From NCBI GenBank assembly GCA_944325215.1, contig CALUZC010000010.1, positions 1 through 64,000 of the forward strand: 64,000 nt of DNA, written 5' to 3'. Position 1 is the stretch's first letter, and the number at the start of each line of letters is the position of its first letter. The translations under genes were made by a program, and so were the position numbers. Under the pieces are notes generated by a model, which saw nothing but the letters and a program-made list of their open reading frames with translations, was not told the origin of the DNA and did no database searches. Shown piece by piece: positions 1-37,124 of this stretch. The stretch comes from an uncultured Mucispirillum sp. Its GTDB lineage: Bacteria > Chrysiogenota > Deferribacteres > Deferribacterales > Mucispirillaceae.

Positions 1-723
1 TCCCCAGATGCAATATCTGGGGAGCTAAAGAAAGCAGGAATATATGCAATATGTACCCAAACGATTTATAATTATATATCATTAGGTATATTAAATAGTT
101 GTGATTATAAAAGACAGGTAAGGAAAGTAAAAAGCAATGCAAGGATAGCTTATAATAACACACGTGGCAGAAGTATAGAAGAACGCCCATTTGAGTTAAC
201 AGAGCGAATATATGGTAACTGGGAGATGGATACAGTAGTAGGTAAGCAAGGTAGTAAAGCAGCATTACTTGTGCTTACAGAGAGAGTATCCCGCTTTGAA
301 ATAATAATTAAACTAAGGAATAAAACCCAGAAAAGTATAATAGCTGCATTAGATAAGCTGGAAAAAGCATATAAAGATAAATTCAGTTTAATCTTTAAGA
401 GTATAACAGTAGATAACGGTGTAGAATTTTTAGATATGGAAAGTTTAGAAAAATCAGTGTATAATAAACAATCTAAACGAACTACAATATACTATGCTCA
501 CCCTTATTGTTCTTGGGAAAGGGGTAGTAATGAGAATAATAATAAGCTTATAAGAAAGTTTATTAAAAAGAAAACTGATATTAAAAATTTTTCTAGTAGT
601 TATATTAAAAAAATACAAGACTGGATTAATAATTATCCTAGAAAATTATTTAATTATAAATCGGCTAATGATATTTTTTATGAGAACTTTAATGACTGCT
701 TAATTTGTTGCAATCGTTTTTAG
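1..723 (+). CDS. IS30-family transposase, C-terminal part (5' end outside window)
   Basis: The reading frame is open from base 1 to the stop at 721-723, so this is the 3' portion of a gene that begins before the window. The visible part covers the DDE catalytic core of an IS30-type integrase. The first acidic residue lies in WEMDTVVG (around base 226), the second in VDNGVEF (around 412), and the glutamate in ERGSNENNNKLIR (around 520), which is the signature IS30 form. A DDE transposase cuts and joins element ends. The family is clear. Whether the copy is intact cannot be judged because the N-terminal helix-turn-helix and left end are not in view. The ATG at 226 is internal and is not the start. 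Confidence 0.9.
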   Translation, partial: SPDAISGELKKAGIYAICTQTIYNYISLGILNSCDYKRQVRKVKSNARIAYNNTRGRSIEERPFELTERIYGNWEMDTVVGKQGSKAALLVLTERVSRFEIIIKLRNKTQKSIIAALDKLEKAYKDKFSLIFKSITVDNGVEFLDMESLEKSVYNKQSKRTTIYYAHPYCSWERGSNENNNKLIRKFIKKKTDIKNFSSSYIKKIQDWINNYPRKLFNYKSANDIFYENFNDCLICCNRF

Positions 724-731
724 AATTTACC
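1..731 (+). mobile_element. IS30-family insertion sequence, right part
   Basis: The transposase frame occupies most of this stretch. In IS30 elements the transposase C-terminus often runs into the right terminal inverted repeat, and the bases around 706-731 (TTGCAATCGTTTTTAG...TTTACC) have the look of such an end. The left repeat is outside the window, so the boundary is an inference. No gene lies between this element and base 873. Confidence 0.5.
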
Positions 732-873
732 TTTAGATAATAATTTTATATTTTAGCTTGAATTAATTATAAATATATTTTAGATTAAGATTATAGCTGT
801 ATTTATGCGCGTAGAATATGGCTATAATTTTAGCTAAACAATAGCAAAATTACATTCATATATGGAGCGAGAT

Positions 874-1182
874 ATGAGTATCGAAACAATCGGGCTTAGA
901 GCAATCATTACAACTAACCCTCGTCCAAGAGATTATGTAAATAAGTGTATTAAAATATCTCAGGCAAGGCGTGATTATTTCCAAGAAAGTGTTAAACTTT
1001 CTCAAATGGCAGTTAATAAAAGAATTGCCACAGAATCTGAAAAAATAGCAGATATTAACAGGTTTAATAAAAATGGATACTGGTCACCATCGCCTAATCT
1101 TACATTTCATAAGTCATTGAAGATACAGACAGCGTATTCTGCAATGGCACAGGCTGAAAGAAGATTTGATGTAAAAGCATAA
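874..1182 (+). CDS. hypothetical protein, 102 aa
   Basis: I do not recognise this protein. It is basic, predicted soluble, with no signal peptide or membrane segment, and rich in Lys, Arg and Ser. The frame opens at 862, but a GGAG at 864-867 sits six bases before the ATG at 874, so 874 is the better start. The same ATGGAG-N6-ATG arrangement is seen at flhG. It stands alone between the IS30 remnant and a hairpin terminator at 1201-1223, so it is probably a single-gene transcript. Function unknown. Confidence 0.6.
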   Translation: MSIETIGLRAIITTNPRPRDYVNKCIKISQARRDYFQESVKLSQMAVNKRIATESEKIADINRFNKNGYWSPSPNLTFHKSLKIQTAYSAMAQAERRFDVKA

Positions 1183-1200
1183 AAATATACAAATAAAATA

Positions 1201-1223
1201 AAGGGGGTTACTGCCACCCCCTT
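1201..1223 (+). terminator. hairpin after the 874-1182 gene
   Basis: An 8-bp perfect stem AAGGGGGT/ACCCCCTT with a 7-base loop lies 19 bases after the stop. The stem is very GC-rich for this genome. The T-tract after it is poor (CGCTTAT), so termination may be incomplete. Confidence 0.6.
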
Positions 1224-1263
1224 CGCTTATGTAATATGAAAATAATGTATTAGTATTATTGTT

Positions 1264-2157
1264 TTATTTTGCCGTCATTTCAACTTTTAGATTTTTAATA
1301 GAATTTAAAAGTTTTCTATAACCTGACATATCTAGTGAATAAAGTGTATCCTTTAATGATATATTATCCTGTTCATTTAATTTTACTGATATGCTGTTGC
1401 TGCTTAATAGGAATTTTTCAAGCTGAGTATAGTTAGATTTAGTAGAATTATCAGTATTAAGTGCTCTTTTATATACTGCATTATTTACTTTTGATTTTAC
1501 TGCATCTACTTCTAGTTCAGAAATAGCTGCAAATTTTTCAAATACTTTATTTTTAAGCCCATTATCAGTAAATGTTATGTAAAATGATGCAGGATTATGG
1601 ACAATATTATTTATAATATTTTTCAAAGAGTCATCATAGGCATTTAATACTTTTAGGCTGCCTTTAATATGCCCTATATTATTTGATGTTATATCTATTG
1701 TAACAAAATTAAATTCTTTAGATTTTTTACCTAATGTATAACTAATTCTGCCTTTAAAATCTATTTTATCAAACCCTAAATCTCCAAAAGTTTTACCAAA
1801 TTCTTTAAATAACGGAGATTTGTTGTATAAAATACCGTCAGTAAAATCTGCCTGAACATTAGAAGGAACAGGTGTGCTTGAAACTATGTGGTTAAACTCT
1901 GCCTTTTTAATATCCATTATTTTTTCATTGCTGCATGTAACAGCAATATTGTTTACAGTTAAGTGTCTGTTAATAATATTGTATGATACACTGCCATACT
2001 CTATTAGGCATATATCCTTAATACTTTCTGTAAATTCAGCAACTTTATTTTTTGCATTATTATTTGCAAGGAAGTAGAAAGTAACTGGTAACACTATAAG
2101 CAGAAGTATAATAACAACAAGGATAAATATTACTACCTTCTTTTTTGATGAAGCCAT
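1264..2157 (-). CDS. membrane-anchored periplasmic protein of unknown function, 297 aa
   Basis: The product has a positively charged N-terminus (MASSKKK) followed by one strongly hydrophobic helix (about residues 8-31), then a long polar region. It is therefore probably anchored in the inner membrane with about 265 residues in the periplasm. The body contains phrases such as RHLTVNNIAV and FKGRISY, recalling the repetitive beta-rich style of AsmA/DUF945-like envelope proteins, but I cannot assign a family. The start is supported by AGGTGA on the minus strand just upstream of the ATG at 2157. It has no obvious operon partner; the next minus gene upstream starts at 2494. Confidence 0.7.
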   Translation of the reverse strand: MASSKKKVVIFILVVIILLLIVLPVTFYFLANNNAKNKVAEFTESIKDICLIEYGSVSYNIINRHLTVNNIAVTCSNEKIMDIKKAEFNHIVSSTPVPSNVQADFTDGILYNKSPLFKEFGKTFGDLGFDKIDFKGRISYTLGKKSKEFNFVTIDITSNNIGHIKGSLKVLNAYDDSLKNIINNIVHNPASFYITFTDNGLKNKVFEKFAAISELEVDAVKSKVNNAVYKRALNTDNSTKSNYTQLEKFLLSSNSISVKLNEQDNISLKDTLYSLDMSGYRKLLNSIKNLKVEMTAK

Positions 2158-2260
2158 TAATCACCTGAAAAATTAATACTTTACTGCACATACTATATTA
2201 GTGTAAGAAAAATGTAAAGAACTTTATAGTATATGCAGAAAACCAGTGACAATTAGATAA

Positions 2261-2494
2261 TTATTTAATTTCTAATTTACGGGCATTATCGCGCAGATTT
2301 TCTACTAATAATGAAAGCTCATCAATTGATTTATCCAAATCTGATAATGTTTTTTGTGCAGTATTTACTAAAGAGTATGATACTTTAATATCATTAGCTA
2401 TACTATACTCTTTATTCATAACCTCATTCATGATGTGCTCCATAATTTTTTCATTATGGATATTTGTATGCAAAAGTCGTGCCAAATTACTCAT
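2261..2494 (-). CDS. small helical hypothetical protein, 77 aa
   Basis: The frame is open back to 2680, but that would run into the divergent ModD gene. The ATG at 2494 is preceded by an excellent ribosome-binding site on the minus strand (GGAGGAA, six bases away), so I take that start. The 77-residue product is predicted to be mostly helical and probably coiled-coil at its C-terminus (residues 45-75, with LSDLDKSIDELSLLVENL). No signal peptide, no membrane segment, no recognised domain. It lies divergent to the ModD gene, with which it shares a short promoter region. Confidence 0.65.
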   Translation of the reverse strand: MSNLARLLHTNIHNEKIMEHIMNEVMNKEYSIANDIKVSYSLVNTAQKTLSDLDKSIDELSLLVENLRDNARKLEIK

Positions 2495-2541
2495 AGTTTT
2501 TTCCTCCACCATACTTATCGGCATAAAAAAATTTTTCTTAA

Positions 2542-2568
2542 TTGAATTATTTAAAAATAAGTTATAAT
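2542..2568 (+). promoter_or_regulatory. possible sigma-70 promoter for modD
   Basis: TTGAAT at 2542-2547 and TATAAT at 2563-2568 are separated by 15 bases. The -10 is perfect and the spacing is short. It lies 20 bases before the ModD start, so the leader would be very short. Confidence 0.4.
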
Positions 2569-2587
2569 ATACCGTAAAAGGTGATTT

Positions 2588-3439
2588 ATGATTTATATTT
2601 CTGATAATATAATAGACGCGATTATCAAAGAAGATATGCCATATTCCGATATTACAACGGAGATGCTGGGAATAGAACATAAAAAGGGAAAAATTTTCTT
2701 TTATGCAAGAAATAAAGGCGTAGTATCAGGTGTTTTTGTTGCAGTAAAAATATTTGAAAAGCTGGGTGGTAAAGTAGATTTTTACCTGCATGATGGTGAA
2801 AAAGTCAAAGAAGGTGATTTAATATTAGCATCATCAGCAACAGCAGGAATTTTGCACGCTGGCTGGAAAGCTGCATTAAATTCACTGGAATATCTTTCAG
2901 GTATATCATCATTATGTAATGAAATGGTAGAAAAAAGTAGAAAAATAAATCCTAATATCATGCTTGCTGCTACAAGAAAATCAATGCCTTTGTCAAGACA
3001 GCTTGTAACAATGGCATTTCAGGCAGGTGGTGTAGTTCCCCACAGGCTTGGGCTTTCTGAAACTATATTAATATTTCAGCAGCACCTTGAATTTATTGGT
3101 GGGCTGGATAACCTTGAAAATGCAATAAAAAATTCTAAACATAAAGCATATGAAAAAAAGATAATATTAGAAACAGAAAATTATGATGATAGTATTAAGG
3201 CTCTTAAATATGATTTCATATCAGGTTTGCAGCTTGATAAATTAAGTCATGAGGAAGTATCAGAAATTGTGGCAGAAAAAAATAAAGTTAATAAAAGCTT
3301 AATAATTATTGCTGCAGGTGGTATTAATTTATCAAATGTAGAATATTATGCAGCATCTATGGCAGATGTTATTGTATCTTCATGTTTTTTCCATGCGCCG
3401 CCAATGGATATAAAGGCAGTTATTAAAGAAAATAATTAA
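2588..3439 (+). CDS. modD: ModD-like quinolinate phosphoribosyltransferase-family protein
   Basis: The 283-aa product belongs to the NadC fold family. NadC makes nicotinate mononucleotide from quinolinate and PRPP. The opening (MIYISDNIIDAIIKEDMPYSD then TTEMLGI) and the motif VVPHRLGLSETILIF are, as I remember them, typical of the ModD branch found with molybdate transport genes, whose reaction is not settled. TRKSMPLSRQL around residue 139 matches the NadC TRKT phosphate-binding position with Ser in place of Thr. No molybdate transporter is next to it; the following gene is a RarD-like permease 15 bases downstream. A true NadC is the alternative; no nadA or nadB is nearby, which weakly favours ModD. 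Confidence 0.7.
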   Translation: MIYISDNIIDAIIKEDMPYSDITTEMLGIEHKKGKIFFYARNKGVVSGVFVAVKIFEKLGGKVDFYLHDGEKVKEGDLILASSATAGILHAGWKAALNSLEYLSGISSLCNEMVEKSRKINPNIMLAATRKSMPLSRQLVTMAFQAGGVVPHRLGLSETILIFQQHLEFIGGLDNLENAIKNSKHKAYEKKIILETENYDDSIKALKYDFISGLQLDKLSHEEVSEIVAEKNKVNKSLIIIAAGGINLSNVEYYAASMADVIVSSCFFHAPPMDIKAVIKENN

Positions 3440-3454
3440 TTACAGGTGTTGTGT

Positions 3455-4351
3455 ATGGATAAAAAAACTTTTGCATTTATTATAGCTTTCTTTTCTTTTT
3501 TTATATGGGGAGCTTTAGTTATATACTGGCATCAGCTTTCAAGTGTTAATCCATTGGAAGTTGTAGCACACAGGGCAATATGGAGCTTAATATTTACCAC
3601 ATTTATTATAATATTTATGAGAAAAGCTGGAGAAGTGGTTAGAGTTGTAAAAAACCCAAAAAATGTTGTGCCGTTAATTTTATCAAGTATTATTATTGCA
3701 AGTAACTGGGGGCTTTTTATATGGGCTGTTGCCAATGATAAAATAATAGAAAGCAGCATGGGTAATTATATTACTCCACTTTTAAATGTGGCAGCCTCTG
3801 CTATTATATTTAAAGTTATTTTAAATAAGTATCAAAAACTATCAGTATTTTTAGCCCTGAGTGGTGTTATATATATGATTGCAGTGTATGGTCAAATTCC
3901 TTATATTGCCATATTTTTTGCTGTAACATTTTGTACTTATGGTATAATCAAAAAACTTGTTAGAGCAAGTGCTGTTACTGGTTTATTTATCGAAACGTTT
4001 ATTATATCTATTCCTTCAGCGATTTATGTGCTTTATCTTATACATACTGGTGAAAGTGCAGTATTAAGCGGGGATAGTTTTATTATAACACTGCTTGTAT
4101 GTGGTGGTATAGTTACCACACTGCCTTTATTAGGATTTTCATACAGTGCCCAAGTGCTGCATTTAAGCACCCTTGGTATATTACAGTATATTACTCCAAC
4201 CATAGCATTTTTATTAGGCGTATTTGTATATAATGAATATTTTAGTGCTAATATGCTTATAACATTTATACTTATATGGACTGGGCTTGTAATATATTCA
4301 GTAGATGGTATTTATCAACTTAAAAAAAATATTAAGGGCATAAATAAATAA
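3455..4351 (+). CDS. rarD: RarD-type EamA/DMT-superfamily permease
   Basis: An integral inner-membrane protein of 298 aa with about ten hydrophobic helices, matching drug/metabolite transporters of the RarD group. The N-terminus FFIWGALVIYWHQLSSVNPLEVVAHRAIWS is split over the first helix and loop and contains the RarD-typical pattern of Trp-Gly, then Pro-x-Glu, then HR-x-x-WS. The C-terminus has LQYITPTIAFLLGVFVYNE, also typical. Substrate unknown; RarD is named after chloramphenicol sensitivity. The frame opens at a GTG (3446), but ATG 3455 has AGGTG six bases upstream and starts at the conserved position. Probably co-transcribed with the ModD-like gene. Confidence 0.85.
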   Translation: MDKKTFAFIIAFFSFFIWGALVIYWHQLSSVNPLEVVAHRAIWSLIFTTFIIIFMRKAGEVVRVVKNPKNVVPLILSSIIIASNWGLFIWAVANDKIIESSMGNYITPLLNVAASAIIFKVILNKYQKLSVFLALSGVIYMIAVYGQIPYIAIFFAVTFCTYGIIKKLVRASAVTGLFIETFIISIPSAIYVLYLIHTGESAVLSGDSFIITLLVCGGIVTTLPLLGFSYSAQVLHLSTLGILQYITPTIAFLLGVFVYNEYFSANMLITFILIWTGLVIYSVDGIYQLKKNIKGINK

Positions 4352-4407
4352 GAAAGTTGAATTATAAGCAAAAAAATAATAAATTTAAAAAAATTTATTT
4401 CTAATTG

Positions 4408-4436
4408 TTGCATTTATTGATTTATTAATCTATACT
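4408..4436 (+). promoter_or_regulatory. sigma-70-like promoter of the flhF operon
   Basis: TTGCAT (4408-4413), a 17-base spacer and TATACT (4431-4436) lie upstream of flhF in an otherwise empty 146-bp gap. This is among the better promoter matches in the window. It would start the flhF-flhG-orf-fliA-cheB transcript about 55 bases before the flhF start. Confidence 0.55.
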
Positions 4437-4497
4437 ATATACTGAAGTAGTGTTCTAAATGCTATTATGAAGAAGTGGCAAGGAGTTTTATCTTTAT

Positions 4498-6096
4498 ATG
4501 AAGATAAAAAAATATGAAGTAACAGACATGAAGGAAGCCCTGCGTATGATAAAAGAGGATTTAGGTCCTGATGCTGTAATTTTATCTACCCGTAAGGTTA
4601 TGAAAAGCAATAACTTTGGTCTTTTTGCTCGTCCTGTTTTAGAAGTTACTGCAGCTGTTGAATATGATGGTATGCCAGCAGCTAGAAAAAAAACATCTTT
4701 TCAAACAGCCACACGCAGAGAGCCAGTTCAAAGTGATTTTGGTTATGAAGCATACCCTTCTGCTTATGCTACTGTTACGAAAAAACAAACTCCAAGAAAG
4801 CCTGCTGTGCCTGTAGAAAAACAGAGCATACCGCAGACAGCCCGTAAACCTAAAACAGTAGTTGAGCATACAGGTTATGGTCCTTATGCTCATCAAAATA
4901 CTTATAATATGCAAGATGATTATTTATCAGAAGCTATGGCAGAAGCAGGTATTACTGATGATGAGCCATTTTACGCACCACCTGTTAGAAAACGAAAAGT
5001 GCAGGAAGATGATGTAATACCAGCCTATATGCCTGAAGCAGAGGAAGAATATTATGAGCCTGTTAGGAAACCACAGAAAAAAGAAAAATATGAAGAGCCT
5101 GTGGTTGAAAAAAGTATTTCAAGAGAAGAAGAAATAAGAAAACAGGCAGAAATAAATGCAGAAAGAATGGCTGCTGTAATAAAGGCTGTTGGGCTTGATA
5201 AATTTACAAACCTGTTAAATGATATTGGAGATATAAAAAAACAGCTTACTTCAATGCAGAATAATATTAGTGACAATATAGCTGTTGATTTGCCTGCAAA
5301 ATTAAAAGATTATCATGCATTATTTATAAAAAATGGTGTAGATGATATAATATCTTACAGGTTGTTAAAAGAAATAGAGATGAAAATAGATGGTAAGGAA
5401 GCCACTCCAGTTCAGATAAAAAGTATTGCAGTGGATAAACTGGCAGAACTTATACCACTTGAAAAAAATTATGCTGAAGTAATGACTAGTAGAATAATAG
5501 CTTTAGCAGGTCCTACTGGTGTTGGCAAAACTACTACTATTGCAAAAATAGCTGCATCACTTACACTAAAATACGGTAAAAAAGTATGCCTTATTACTGT
5601 TGATAATTTTAGGATAGGTGCTGTGGAGCAGTTAAAAACATATGCGGAGATTGTTAACCTTCCATTATACGTTGCAACAAGTCCTGAAGAGCTGGCAAGA
5701 ATTATTGCAAAAGTAAAAGGAAAGTATGACAGTATTCTTATAGACTCTATGGGGAGAGGCCAGTTTGATTCTGAGCAGATTGCAGGTATAAGGTCTTTTT
5801 TCCAAGTGGATTCTAGGATTACAACGGTATTAGTGCTTTCTATGGCATCAAACCATATAGAGCTTTATGATACATTTGACAGGTATGAAATATTAAAACC
5901 TGATTATTTGATTTTTACAAAGCTGGACGAAACGAAGTATTTTGGTCCATTAATAAATATTCCTGTTAAAAAGAAACTTCCATTATTGCTTGTTACAACA
6001 GGGCAAAATGTTCCAGATGATATGGAAGTGCCAGATGGCAAGAAAATTGCTAGAAGAATGTTACAGGAAATACCTACATTATGGAGCGACAAATGA
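4498..6096 (+). CDS. flhF: flagellar biosynthesis GTPase FlhF
   Basis: A 532-aa SRP-type GTPase that marks the site of polar flagellar assembly and recruits the first flagellar components. The N-terminus (KIKKYEVTDMKEALRMIKEDLGPDAVILSTRKV, residues 2-34) is the conserved FlhF B-domain start. Residues 45-215 are a low-complexity, Pro/Lys/Glu-rich linker, and the C-terminal NG domain has GPTGVGKTT near residue 338, DNFRIGAVEQL, and a FTKLDE guanine-specificity motif. Length is at the upper end for FlhF because of the long linker. AAGGAG lies 12 bases before ATG 4498, somewhat far. First gene of the operon; it overlaps flhG by four bases. Confidence 0.95.
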   Translation: MKIKKYEVTDMKEALRMIKEDLGPDAVILSTRKVMKSNNFGLFARPVLEVTAAVEYDGMPAARKKTSFQTATRREPVQSDFGYEAYPSAYATVTKKQTPRKPAVPVEKQSIPQTARKPKTVVEHTGYGPYAHQNTYNMQDDYLSEAMAEAGITDDEPFYAPPVRKRKVQEDDVIPAYMPEAEEEYYEPVRKPQKKEKYEEPVVEKSISREEEIRKQAEINAERMAAVIKAVGLDKFTNLLNDIGDIKKQLTSMQNNISDNIAVDLPAKLKDYHALFIKNGVDDIISYRLLKEIEMKIDGKEATPVQIKSIAVDKLAELIPLEKNYAEVMTSRIIALAGPTGVGKTTTIAKIAASLTLKYGKKVCLITVDNFRIGAVEQLKTYAEIVNLPLYVATSPEELARIIAKVKGKYDSILIDSMGRGQFDSEQIAGIRSFFQVDSRITTVLVLSMASNHIELYDTFDRYEILKPDYLIFTKLDETKYFGPLINIPVKKKLPLLLVTTGQNVPDDMEVPDGKKIARRMLQEIPTLWSDK

Positions 6097-34019: not shown

Positions 34020-34535
34020 ATGAAAATTAAATTATTTCTTACTATTTTACTAACTTTTGCATCAGTAAGTATTTATGCACAAGAATCAAAAGAAATAGTA
34101 GCAAAAATGATTGACGGTTTGCGTGTTGATAACTCTAAAAGTATTACTATACCAGGCAGAAAAGGTGCTATAAGAATATATTTTGAGTCATTAAAAACGA
34201 CTCCATATTCGTCTGAATTAATTAATATAAAATATAATGATAAAATATCACCATTTCAGGCAGGCAGTAATTTCTTAATTACTAAAGATGGTAAACTGAT
34301 TTTTGGCAGGTATAATGATAAAATTTATGCACGTGGTTATACAGATAGATATAATGAATATATATCTATAAAACATAATAATTTCATATATGATTATAAT
34401 AATAGTATTATTAAAATATATGAGAATAAAGAAGAAGTTTTATCAGGAAAAGAAATAATTTATGATAAAACTAAGTCATCTTTTACAATATATGATAAAA
34501 ATAAGTTAATAAAAACCATGTCTGTTAGCAACTAA
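34020..34535 (+). CDS. small exported protein, possible member of a local secreted family
   Basis: A 171-aa protein with a clear signal peptide (MKIKLFLTILLTFASVSIYAQ). The mature part is Tyr/Ile/Lys-rich and probably beta-rich. Its end (FIYDYNNSIIKIY, then EIIYDK...FTIYDKNKLIK) resembles the end of the exported protein at 62816-63337 (VEFNNDTVIVKR, then RIIYDF...VIKYLKNDKLEQ). That likeness is by eye and moderate. It follows the SfrA-like gene by 29 bases with AGGAGAG upstream, and could be co-transcribed. Function unknown. Confidence 0.65.
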   Translation: MKIKLFLTILLTFASVSIYAQESKEIVAKMIDGLRVDNSKSITIPGRKGAIRIYFESLKTTPYSSELINIKYNDKISPFQAGSNFLITKDGKLIFGRYNDKIYARGYTDRYNEYISIKHNNFIYDYNNSIIKIYENKEEVLSGKEIIYDKTKSSFTIYDKNKLIKTMSVSN

Positions 34536-34538
34536 TAA

Positions 34539-35654
34539 ATGGAGTATATGTTGGAACATGCAAAACATCTTTCAAAAAAAGAAAAAGTTAATTATGGGAG
34601 TTATTATACGCCACAAAACTTAATTGGATATATAGAAAAACTTATACACAATAATATTGATATTGAGATTTTAAATAAATATATATTACTTGATACATCA
34701 TGTGGTAGTGGTAATTTATTAGATTTAACATATGAATTTAAGCAAATTATTGGTGCAGATATCGATAATGAAGCTGTTAAATATGCAAGAAATAGATTTA
34801 GCAATAAAAATGTTGACTTATTAGTATTAAATTCTTTAGAAAAAATAACTAGGCATGAATATAATATAAGCGATAGTGATATGCTTTTTATTATTGGAAA
34901 TCCACCTTATAATGACAGAACTTCTATTGTGCAAAATTATTTAAAAACATATAATATATACAATATTAATGAAAAAGTAGAACACAGGGATTTAGGAATT
35001 AGTTTTCTATTATCATATAATGAGTTGAAAGCTGATTATATATGTGTTTTACACCCACTATCTTATTTAATTAAAAAGACAAATTTTAATAGTTTAGGTA
35101 GATTTAAAGATAATTATGTATTAGAAGATTCACTTATAGTAAGCTCTCAACTATTTTGTGCAACATCATTGTCATTTTTTCCAATAATTATTGGCTTATA
35201 TAAACGAAGTGAAAAAGGTATGGATTATGAATATATAAAAAATTATAAATTTAAAACCATTGAAAATCACAAGTTTTCTCTTAATGACTTTGATTTTATA
35301 AGTAAGTATGTAGATAAGTATCCGAATAAAAATAAAATAAATCAATCAAATATAGTGGCAAGATTTTACACTATGCGTGATATTAATGCATTAAAAAGGT
35401 CTAGAACTTTTATTCAAGAAGATTGTGCTAATACAGTATATATTACTGATAATAAATACTCTTTATATTGTTATATAGACGTATTTAAAAAATACATAAA
35501 TAAACTGCCATATTATTTTGGAAATCTTGATGTTTTTATAAACTACCAAAAATTTAAATTAATAGAAAATGAATTCGTGGAACTTTCAGAAAACAATATA
35601 AAAAGCGATAATATAGATAAATATTTTTTAGAATTATTTGGTGAAACATCATGA
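34539..35654 (+). CDS. type II N6-adenine DNA methyltransferase
   Basis: A 371-aa methyltransferase with SAM motif I DTSCGSGN at residues 52-59, a motif II acidic GADIDNEAVKYA, and catalytic motif IV NPPY at 121-124, the form typical of N6-adenine (gamma-type order) enzymes. A tyrosine-rich opening (YGSYYTPQNLIGYI) is also common in this group. The gene overlaps the next frame by four bases (ATGA), making a compact restriction-modification pair. It protects host DNA at the site cut by its partner. Base composition is more AT-rich than flanking genes, suggesting transfer. Start: ATG 34539 is used; GGAG at 34541-34544 could serve ATG 34548 or TTG 34551 instead. Confidence 0.88.
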   Translation: MEYMLEHAKHLSKKEKVNYGSYYTPQNLIGYIEKLIHNNIDIEILNKYILLDTSCGSGNLLDLTYEFKQIIGADIDNEAVKYARNRFSNKNVDLLVLNSLEKITRHEYNISDSDMLFIIGNPPYNDRTSIVQNYLKTYNIYNINEKVEHRDLGISFLLSYNELKADYICVLHPLSYLIKKTNFNSLGRFKDNYVLEDSLIVSSQLFCATSLSFFPIIIGLYKRSEKGMDYEYIKNYKFKTIENHKFSLNDFDFISKYVDKYPNKNKINQSNIVARFYTMRDINALKRSRTFIQEDCANTVYITDNKYSLYCYIDVFKKYINKLPYYFGNLDVFINYQKFKLIENEFVELSENNIKSDNIDKYFLELFGETS

Positions 35655-36418
35655 AAATTAATAAAGTAGATAAAAATAAAAAAAATATTGAAATTACAAT
35701 ACCATTAACAAGTACACAGGGAAAAATAAGAGTAAAAAGAAGAGATGTTTGGTATGGATATGGAAATCCTGTTGCAACAAGACAGCAGGAATTTAATAAT
35801 AAGTGCTATATAGAATGGCAAATAGGGTATGATGTAGTAATTAATAATAAAAGTAAACTGGAATTATCTACACTGCCAAAGAAAAAATTTACAGGTTCAA
35901 ATGGTAAAGAAAAAGCATTATATGAATTAAGCGAATATCTATATTATTTTTATAAAATGGATATTATAAGTAACAAAGAATTAAGGAAACTACTAGAATA
36001 TATCAATAATATAGATAACAAAAATCTTATTGAACAAAACATAGATTTATCTGTTACAAGGTGCAGCCCTGTAGAGTATATACTTGAAGTAATAAACTTT
36101 GGAAAAAGTATAGTTCAATATCCTTTACTTTTTTATAAATTTTCTTCTTTTGAGGTGTTGGTTGAAATTGTAATTAAAGAAAAACAAAAAGCAGTAGGTT
36201 TGCAGCCAATGCTTTATGTATGTTTTCCTGTAACAAAATTAAAAGGAGAAAAAAGGGAACTAATTGGACGCTGTGCAGAACAAAACGAAAAAGCAGTGCT
36301 ACTATTAGATAAAACTCATAAAGATTTCATACTAGGAACTTTCAAGATATTTGCTTTGTTAAGCAAAGCACATAAAAGTGATGTTATTAGCATAATAAAT
36401 TTAGTATTAAAATCATAG
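35651..36418 (+). CDS. restriction enzyme partner, possible R.PabI-family DNA glycosylase
   Basis: A 255-aa protein translated in ATGA overlap with the methyltransferase, so the cognate nuclease by context. No PD-(D/E)XK, HNH or GIY-YIG motif is visible. Instead it has Lys25-x-Arg27, then Glu55-x4-Tyr60, and near the C-terminus His241-x2-Asp244. From memory, R.PabI has Lys30/Arg32, Glu63/Tyr68 and His211/Asp214 with its end about 12 residues after. Spacing and order agree closely. R.PabI and HpyAXII excise adenine from GTAC and leave abasic sites. The family call is inference from these residues; site specificity is unknown. A GC-poor, probably acquired gene. Confidence 0.55.
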   Translation: MKINKVDKNKKNIEITIPLTSTQGKIRVKRRDVWYGYGNPVATRQQEFNNKCYIEWQIGYDVVINNKSKLELSTLPKKKFTGSNGKEKALYELSEYLYYFYKMDIISNKELRKLLEYINNIDNKNLIEQNIDLSVTRCSPVEYILEVINFGKSIVQYPLLFYKFSSFEVLVEIVIKEKQKAVGLQPMLYVCFPVTKLKGEKRELIGRCAEQNEKAVLLLDKTHKDFILGTFKIFALLSKAHKSDVISIINLVLKS

Positions 36419-36422
36419 GCTG

Positions 36423-37124
36423 CTATTTTTCCATAATTACAATAGTTACAGCACCAAATACTAAAGTTTTAAAATAAATATTCTTAAATCCTGCTTCTTC
36501 AATCATCTGTTTATATTCTTTTCTTTTTGGAAAATGATAAACTGAATCAGGTAAATATTTATACGCTTTACGGGAGGAAAAAATCCCGCCAATGAATGGG
36601 AGCATATACATAAAATAGATTTTATAAAAAAAACTTGTAATTTTATTTTCTGGTCTTGTTAGTTCTAAAATACATACTTTACCACCTGGTTTTATAACCC
36701 TGTATAGCTCTGTGAGCCCTCTTGCTTTATCTGTAACATTTCTAAAGCCAAAAGCCATAGTAAGCCTGTCAAATGAACAATCTTTAAATGGTAAATTATG
36801 GGCATCTGCAGCAGCATATGGGATATTATTAAGTTTCTTTTGGCTAATATGCAGCATATTTACACTAAAATCTGCACCATAAATAAATGCATCTGGGTGC
36901 TGCTTATGGATTTCTGCAATCATATCTCCAGTTCCGCATGCTAAATCAAGGACTTTATGACCATTTTTAATATCTGACAATCTAATTGCAACTTTACGCC
37001 AGTTAGAATCAAGGTCAAAGCTTAGAATACCATTTAAAAAATCATATTTATCAGCAATATTATTAAACATTTCCTGTATTTTTTTGGATTGTTCTTGTTC
37101 TTTTAAATTTTCATTATAAGACAT
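36423..37124 (-). CDS. ubiE: demethylmenaquinone/ubiquinone C-methyltransferase UbiE (MenG)
   Basis: A 233-aa methyltransferase for the last step of menaquinone synthesis. SAM motif I DLACGTGD is at residues 60-67. The UbiE signatures YDFLNGILSFDLDSNWR (about 27-43) and the FGFRNVTDKARGLTELYRVIKPGG region (quoted in part, about 125-150) are clear. In an anaerobe the product would be menaquinone, in line with a UbiD homologue at 50253. It is the last gene of a minus-strand signalling operon and overlaps the phosphatase gene upstream by 22 bases, an odd partner set. It converges on the restriction gene with a four-base gap. Confidence 0.93.
   Translation of the reverse strand: MSYNENLKEQEQSKKIQEMFNNIADKYDFLNGILSFDLDSNWRKVAIRLSDIKNGHKVLDLACGTGDMIAEIHKQHPDAFIYGADFSVNMLHISQKKLNNIPYAAADAHNLPFKDCSFDRLTMAFGFRNVTDKARGLTELYRVIKPGGKVCILELTRPENKITSFFYKIYFMYMLPFIGGIFSSRKAYKYLPDSVYHFPKRKEYKQMIEEAGFKNIYFKTLVFGAVTIVIMEK

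Follow-up and report, generated by a model that had tools for sequence, protein, structure and literature searches.

A two-gene restriction-modification locus of the R.PabI family in Mucispirillum, with a predicted restriction DNA glycosylase

Introduction

The closest described systems to the locus analyzed here belong to the R.PabI family. R.CcoLI from Campylobacter coli (PDB code 7cfa) contacts the bases of its site through K17, R19, E47, Q49, I50, Q158, Q164, M166, Y168 and F215, and contains the catalytic residues Y52, H222 and D225 and an AP-lyase residue, Lys71, that is supported by Asp53 and has Asn67 nearby (PMC7806768). R.PabI from Pyrococcus abyssi, the partner of M.PabI (PDB codes 2dvy and 3waz), is without the inserted β-sheet and displays weak AP-lyase activity (PMC7806768). 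In the bacterial lineage, the methyltransferase gene is located upstream of the restriction gene in the same orientation, whereas the archaeal PabI pairs are arranged tail-to-tail (PMC4615327). According to a 2023 review, few thermophiles and archaea contain members of the family, which abounds in Campylobacter and Helicobacter (PMC10273834).

Mucispirillum schaedleri was added to the known hosts of PabI homologs in 2015, when horizontal transfer from Epsilonproteobacteria was proposed for the R.PabI homologs of this organism (Kojima and Kobayashi 2015, PMC4615327). Section 5 of that paper prints Mollicutes for M. schaedleri, which belongs to Deferribacterota. Its text was found to contain no analysis of residues, structure, empty sites or GTAC in Mucispirillum.

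The stretch of DNA studied here (the window) comprises 64,000 nucleotides from an uncultured Mucispirillum sp. (GenBank assembly GCA_944325215.1, contig CALUZC010000010.1, positions 1–64,000). Its pair of genes, hereafter M and R, shares genus, family and M–R arrangement with the M. schaedleri homolog, but originates from a different species.

Organization of the gene pair

M encodes 371 residues and R encodes 255, the latter with the same boundaries as in an earlier sequence-only reading, and the R start and M stop codons share a 4-nt ATGA overlap (Table 1). M may instead start at ATG 34548 or TTG 34551; the assigned start is in doubt because the TTG start of the ortholog in genome G006 aligns with 34551. 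M is matched by the Pfam N6_Mtase model (E = 2.6e-06) and by the type II methyltransferase profile of PADLOC (1.7e-82). Motif I (D52-TSCGSG) precedes motif IV (N121-PPY), which is followed by a long C-terminal region, the motif order of a gamma-type adenine methyltransferase. The gene order, with M upstream of R in the same orientation, is that of the R.CcoLI lineage (PMC4615327). Of the 80 family loci from the genome collection, 78 contain a homolog of M, almost always directly upstream of R and in the same orientation; at locus L073, M is downstream of R. Judged from their sequences, M and R are a complete two-gene type II restriction-modification pair.

Table 1. Coordinates of the gene pair, its neighbors and the codons of putative functional residues in the window
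Feature	Coordinates	Strand	Evidence or conservation
Left neighbor, fast-evolving 171-residue protein, outside the R-M pair	34020..34535	+	At this place in 10/10 Mucispirillum genomes
M, predicted N6-adenine DNA methyltransferase of bacterial M.PabI/M.HpyAXII type	34539..35654	+	Pfam N6_Mtase, PADLOC, family-locus homologs
R, predicted R.PabI-family restriction DNA glycosylase/AP lyase (HALFPIPE fold)	35651..36418	+	PF09522, phmmer, AF2, Foldseek
Codons K25-I-R27, putative guanine recognition (CcoLI K17/R19, PabI K30/R32)	35723..35731	+	Invariant in 75/75 family rows
Codons E55-W-Q57-I58-G-Y60-D61, putative base recognition, catalytic Tyr and D53 equivalent	35813..35833	+	
Codons N84-G-K-E-K88 (equivalents of CcoLI N67 and AP-lyase Lys71)	35900..35914	+	K88 is K in 74/75 rows
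Codons H241-K-S-D244, putative catalytic His/Asp (PabI H211/D214, CcoLI H222/D225)	36371..36382	+	In 72/72 rows reaching there
Right neighbor, ubiE/menG-like methyltransferase, convergent	36423..37124	-	17–117 nt from the 171-residue gene, with no M/R between, in five genomes

The left neighbor displays no family match in Pfam or NCBIfam. It has a likely signal peptide, and its orthologs across the genus share 28–77% sequence identity with the window copy. A role of this gene as a third component of the system (a control protein) was rejected, since all ten Mucispirillum genomes have it, whether or not they carry the R-M pair.

Family and predicted structure of R

The Pfam profile PF09522 (RE_R_Pab1) matches R with 125.2 bits (cut-off 25, E = 1.9e-36) over residues 134–251 only, as the model is limited to the C-terminal half of the family. 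A phmmer search of the PDB aligned residues 12–255 with R.CcoLI (7cfa, E = 3.8e-47), followed by the R.PabI entries (2dvy, E = 3.8e-16); no NCBIfam model scored above its cut-off. These Pfam and phmmer E-values place the family identity of R far beyond chance. Its closest named relative (94–95% identity) is found in a bin labeled Mucispirillum schaedleri (locus L007), whose genome, G001, is in the genus of the window.

The AlphaFold (AF2) model of R, built from a 63-row alignment, has a mean pLDDT of 94.3 and a pTM of 0.89. A Foldseek search of the PDB with this model identified 7cfa with an E-value of 3.3e-24, TM scores of 0.82 (query) and 0.89 (target) and 40% sequence identity. The remaining matches at E < 0.001 are without exception R.CcoLI and R.PabI chains, the weakest of them with an E-value of 1.2e-9, and the next, unrelated match appears at E = 0.075. 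R is thus predicted to adopt the HALFPIPE fold and, by sequence, profile, predicted fold and residues (see below), is a member of the R.PabI family. The proposal of the sequence-only reading, a restriction-modification pair with an R.PabI-type restriction half, is borne out by these searches.

Compared to R.CcoLI, R shares the fold, the catalytic residues, the AP-lyase Lys and Asp and the GTAC-contact residues, but is about 20 residues longer, has a larger spacing from Y60-D61 to the AP-lyase Lys, and falls into a different subgroup of the tree. Its likeness to R.PabI extends to the fold and all six residues named in the sequence-only reading, at a sequence identity of about 26% (Foldseek).

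Active-site residues

Lys25, Arg27, Glu55, Tyr60, His241 and Asp244 of R all align with K30, R32, E63, Y68, H211 and D214 of R.PabI, so that both the six residues and the R.PabI numbering given in the sequence-only reading (30/32, 63/68, 211/214) were correct by the phmmer alignment. The same residues align with K17, R19, E47, Y52, H222 and D225 of R.CcoLI, the last of which is Asn in the crystallized mutant. The equivalences are based on sequence alignment and the fold match. In R, the His/Asp pair is 14 and 11 residues away from the C-terminus; the corresponding distances in R.PabI (226 residues in PDB 2dvy) are 15 and 12.

The ten base-contact residues common to R.CcoLI and R.PabI are all unchanged in R, as K25, R27, E55, Q57, I58, Q179, Q185, M187, Y189 and F234. 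The AP-lyase set of R.CcoLI (K71, D53 and N67) is retained as K88, D61 and N84, so the putative AP-lyase residues of the mesophilic bacterial subgroup (R.CcoLI/R.HpyAXII type) are present by alignment. The conservation seen at E55–D61 and Q185–Y189 in the 75 family rows is in part circular, as EWQIGYD- and LQPMLYVC-like peptides were used as search patterns, while that of K25, R27, K88, Q179, F234, H241 and D244 is not.

Two substitutions were seen elsewhere in the family. The thymine-contact Gln (Q164 of R.CcoLI, Q185 of R) is replaced by Met in 12 members scattered over several branches of the R tree (L018, L020, L027, L029, L040, L041, L050, L075, L081, L084, L085 and L086), whose recognition specificity may differ, as judged from this substitution. 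The equivalent of Asn67 (N84 of R) is replaced by Lys in a well-supported clade (L060, L064, L066, L067, L069, L072, L073, L077, L079 and L080) with hosts from Bacillota, Fibrobacterota, Verrucomicrobiota, Spirochaetota and others.

Genomic site within Mucispirillum

The 171-residue gene and ubiE adjoin across the genus, the right side in G002 being lost to a contig end. The cassette occupies this one site in five Mucispirillum genomes, and the site is empty in five others. The M–R pair is located between the two genes in G000, G001, G005 and G006; in G002, the start of M is seen at the same site before the contig ends. The empty sites have a spacing of 17–19 nt in G003, G004, G008 and G009 and of about 116 nt in G007, and no match to M or R was found anywhere in these five genomes. 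Nor was a match to R found in the other five genomes of the family or in the 31 of the order. The simplest reading is one acquisition in a Mucispirillum ancestor, followed by several losses. The 116-nt spacer of G007 was considered as a deletion scar, but none was recognized, the best match to the cassette being 15 nt.

The G005 pair is more divergent from the window than its neighbor (65% identity for M vs 83% for ubiE). A separate acquisition of this pair was not adopted, as an M tree grouping G005 with the window species was not rejected (AU p = 0.357). The GC content of the cassette is 24.2%, compared to 31.1% for the window; its AT-richness is weakened as a sign of foreign origin because the left neighbor is equally AT-rich (23.4% GC).

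Phylogeny and origin

The Mucispirillum clade is sister to a gut Helicobacter/Campylobacter group, with members such as H. cinaedi, H. canis, H. japonicus and Campylobacter sp. MIT 97-5078, in separate R and M trees (SH-aLRT 94 and 95), and a joined M+R tree gives the same relation with support of 100/99. In the joined tree, both are nested in a larger set that consists almost only of Campylobacterota systems (100/97). The R proteins of the sister group share 50–52% identity with the window R, but are found in other hosts and loci, and Mucispirillum forms its own well-supported clade. Forcing Campylobacterota together without Mucispirillum costs 22 log-likelihood units, which is not a formal rejection (AU p = 0.074). 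An excess of epsilonproteobacterial genes has been described in M. schaedleri, which has many genes in common with Helicobacter and Campylobacter (PMC5285517).

The best reading of these data, short of proof, is that the cassette was transferred from gut Campylobacterota. The acquisition in a shared gut habitat suggested by the sequence-only reading fits the trees, the empty sites and the gene excess; its donor and direction are not proven at the above AU value.

Carriage by a virus is unsupported, as no relative of R was found in phage records or viral contigs. Fourteen conjugative Campylobacter plasmids carry a PabI-family R, and such plasmids are a possible vehicle for the spread of the family. 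The plasmid hosts are Campylobacter jejuni and C. coli; the one plasmid locus that was read, L006 (NZ_CP092023.1), also contains M.

Proposed function and alternative interpretations

We consider it very likely that M and R constitute a complete type II restriction-modification system that acts on GTAC and is of the R.HpyAXII/R.CcoLI type within the bacterial PabI lineage. This proposal starts from the family, predicted fold, residues, gene pair and locus history observed above; base excision, AP lyase, GTAC specificity and phage protection would follow by analogy with the characterized relatives R.PabI, R.CcoLI and R.HpyAXII (PMC7806768, PMC10273834). M would methylate the adenine of GTAC in the DNA of the host itself. 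R, the product of the second of the two overlapping genes, would work as a dimer with a HALFPIPE groove that bends DNA with unmethylated GTAC, flips out the bases and excises the adenine, leaving abasic sites. These could be cut either by the AP lyase of R itself (β-elimination by Lys88, with Asp61 assisting) or by a host AP endonuclease (endonuclease IV, nfo); a gene for nfo is present above cut-off in the genome, where xth gave no match. The opposed breaks, with blocked ends that are hard to repair, would result in the destruction of incoming phage or plasmid DNA. The cassette would have entered the Mucispirillum ancestor at one intergenic site, most likely from gut Campylobacterota, and later been lost or have decayed in several species.

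One alternative is that the locus is a decaying remnant, in which M still methylates while R is inactive or unexpressed in this strain. In G001 (L122), a frameshift interrupts R near codon 11, and in G005 (L120) R contains two stops and a frameshift, with M intact in both, although these two genomes are assembled bins in which single-base errors are possible; R.PabI homologs are also often disrupted (Kojima et al. 2015, PMC4615327). Because R is broken in these sister genomes, its activity cannot be assumed everywhere. Against decay in the window itself, its R has the full length and lacks none of the active-site residues, and the R of G006 (70% identical) is also intact, which makes a remnant unlikely here.

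GTAC frequencies were compared in samples of about 320–465 kb per genome. The observed/expected ratios are 0.23 in the window genome, 0.28 in G001 and 0.06 in G006, all carriers, in each of which no more than one or two tetranucleotides are scarcer than GTAC. Non-carriers of the genus have ratios of 0.71 (G007, close to the window), 0.52 (G003) and 0.24 (G004), and a non-carrier from another genus of the family has 0.88. GTAC is thus rarer in carriers than in most non-carriers, and the contrast between the window and G007 fits GTAC restriction; the scarcity is not specific to carriers, because G004 is also low. Counted around family loci of other groups, carriers alone, the ratio is 0.14 in Bacillota, 0.42 in Patescibacteria, and 0.43 in Alphaproteobacteria pooled with one Spirochaetales locus.

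Other features of these samples were also observed. The low GTAC of G004 (samples L223–L242), which has neither M nor R, could possibly reflect a different system acting on GTAC or the recent loss of this one. All six sampled Mucispirillum genomes show strong avoidance of GATC (0.01–0.12), unlike the sample of the sister genus (0.68). For ACGT, avoidance is restricted to G006, G003 and G004 (0.04–0.24), with the window, G001 and G007 at 0.73–0.76.

It is also conceivable that the PabI fold was retained while recognition changed, such that the target is no longer GTAC. The 12 family members with Met at the thymine-contact position indicate that the contact set can evolve, and the poverty of the non-carrier G004 in GTAC is a further point in favor of this reading. 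The unchanged ten base contacts of R and the scarcity of GTAC in the three carriers and near family loci of several phyla argue against a changed site, which we regard as quite improbable. An ordinary phosphodiester nuclease (e.g. PD-(D/E)XK) merely resembling PabI is contradicted by both the sequence and the predicted fold and is hardly credible: nothing was found in its favor, R matched no PD-(D/E)XK or other nuclease by profile (Pfam, NCBIfam, PADLOC) or fold (Foldseek, PDB), and every Foldseek match at E < 0.001 is an R.CcoLI or R.PabI chain. The sequence-only reading had named two outcomes as contrary to the PabI assignment, a different nuclease fold or a mismatch of the six residues with the R.PabI active site. 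Neither was seen, by Foldseek or in the alignments.

Distribution of the family and significance

A genome scan identified 152 relatives of R, of which 80 were kept, and the rows of the R tree are assigned to 20 phylum-level NCBI groups, provisionally for the many loci that come from assembled bins. Patescibacteria contribute a clade of 13 rows with full support, mostly accompanied by M (L017, L019, L022, L023, L025, L026, L030, L031, L033, L034, L040, L042 and L071). Groups with M–R pairs include Patescibacteria, Rickettsiales, Bacillota, Fibrobacterota, Verrucomicrobiota and Poribacteria. The presence of relatives in about 20 phylum-level groups, including Patescibacteria, is new and wider than described in the literature cited here (e.g. 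PMC10273834).

The window pair is an ordinary member of a rare known kind, from a genus already reported in 2015 (PMC4615327). The new branch anticipated by the sequence-only reading does not hold, given that earlier report and the relatives in so many groups. The pair represents one of the few types of restriction predicted to attack the base and not the backbone, and was recognized from sequence alone in a culturable mouse-gut commensal. The identical empty site in its relatives makes the genus a convenient natural experiment on the cost and protection of a restriction glycosylase.

The spread of the family across bacterial phyla outweighs this single Mucispirillum member, because the cited literature has the family nearly confined to archaea, Helicobacter and Campylobacter. 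We think it probable that the restriction glycosylase, rather than being peculiar to archaea and Campylobacterales, is a widespread bacterial defense module, with intact M–R pairs, the same active site and some altered contacts that perhaps read other sequences, and that Mucispirillum is one instance of its repeated spread between gut and other communities.
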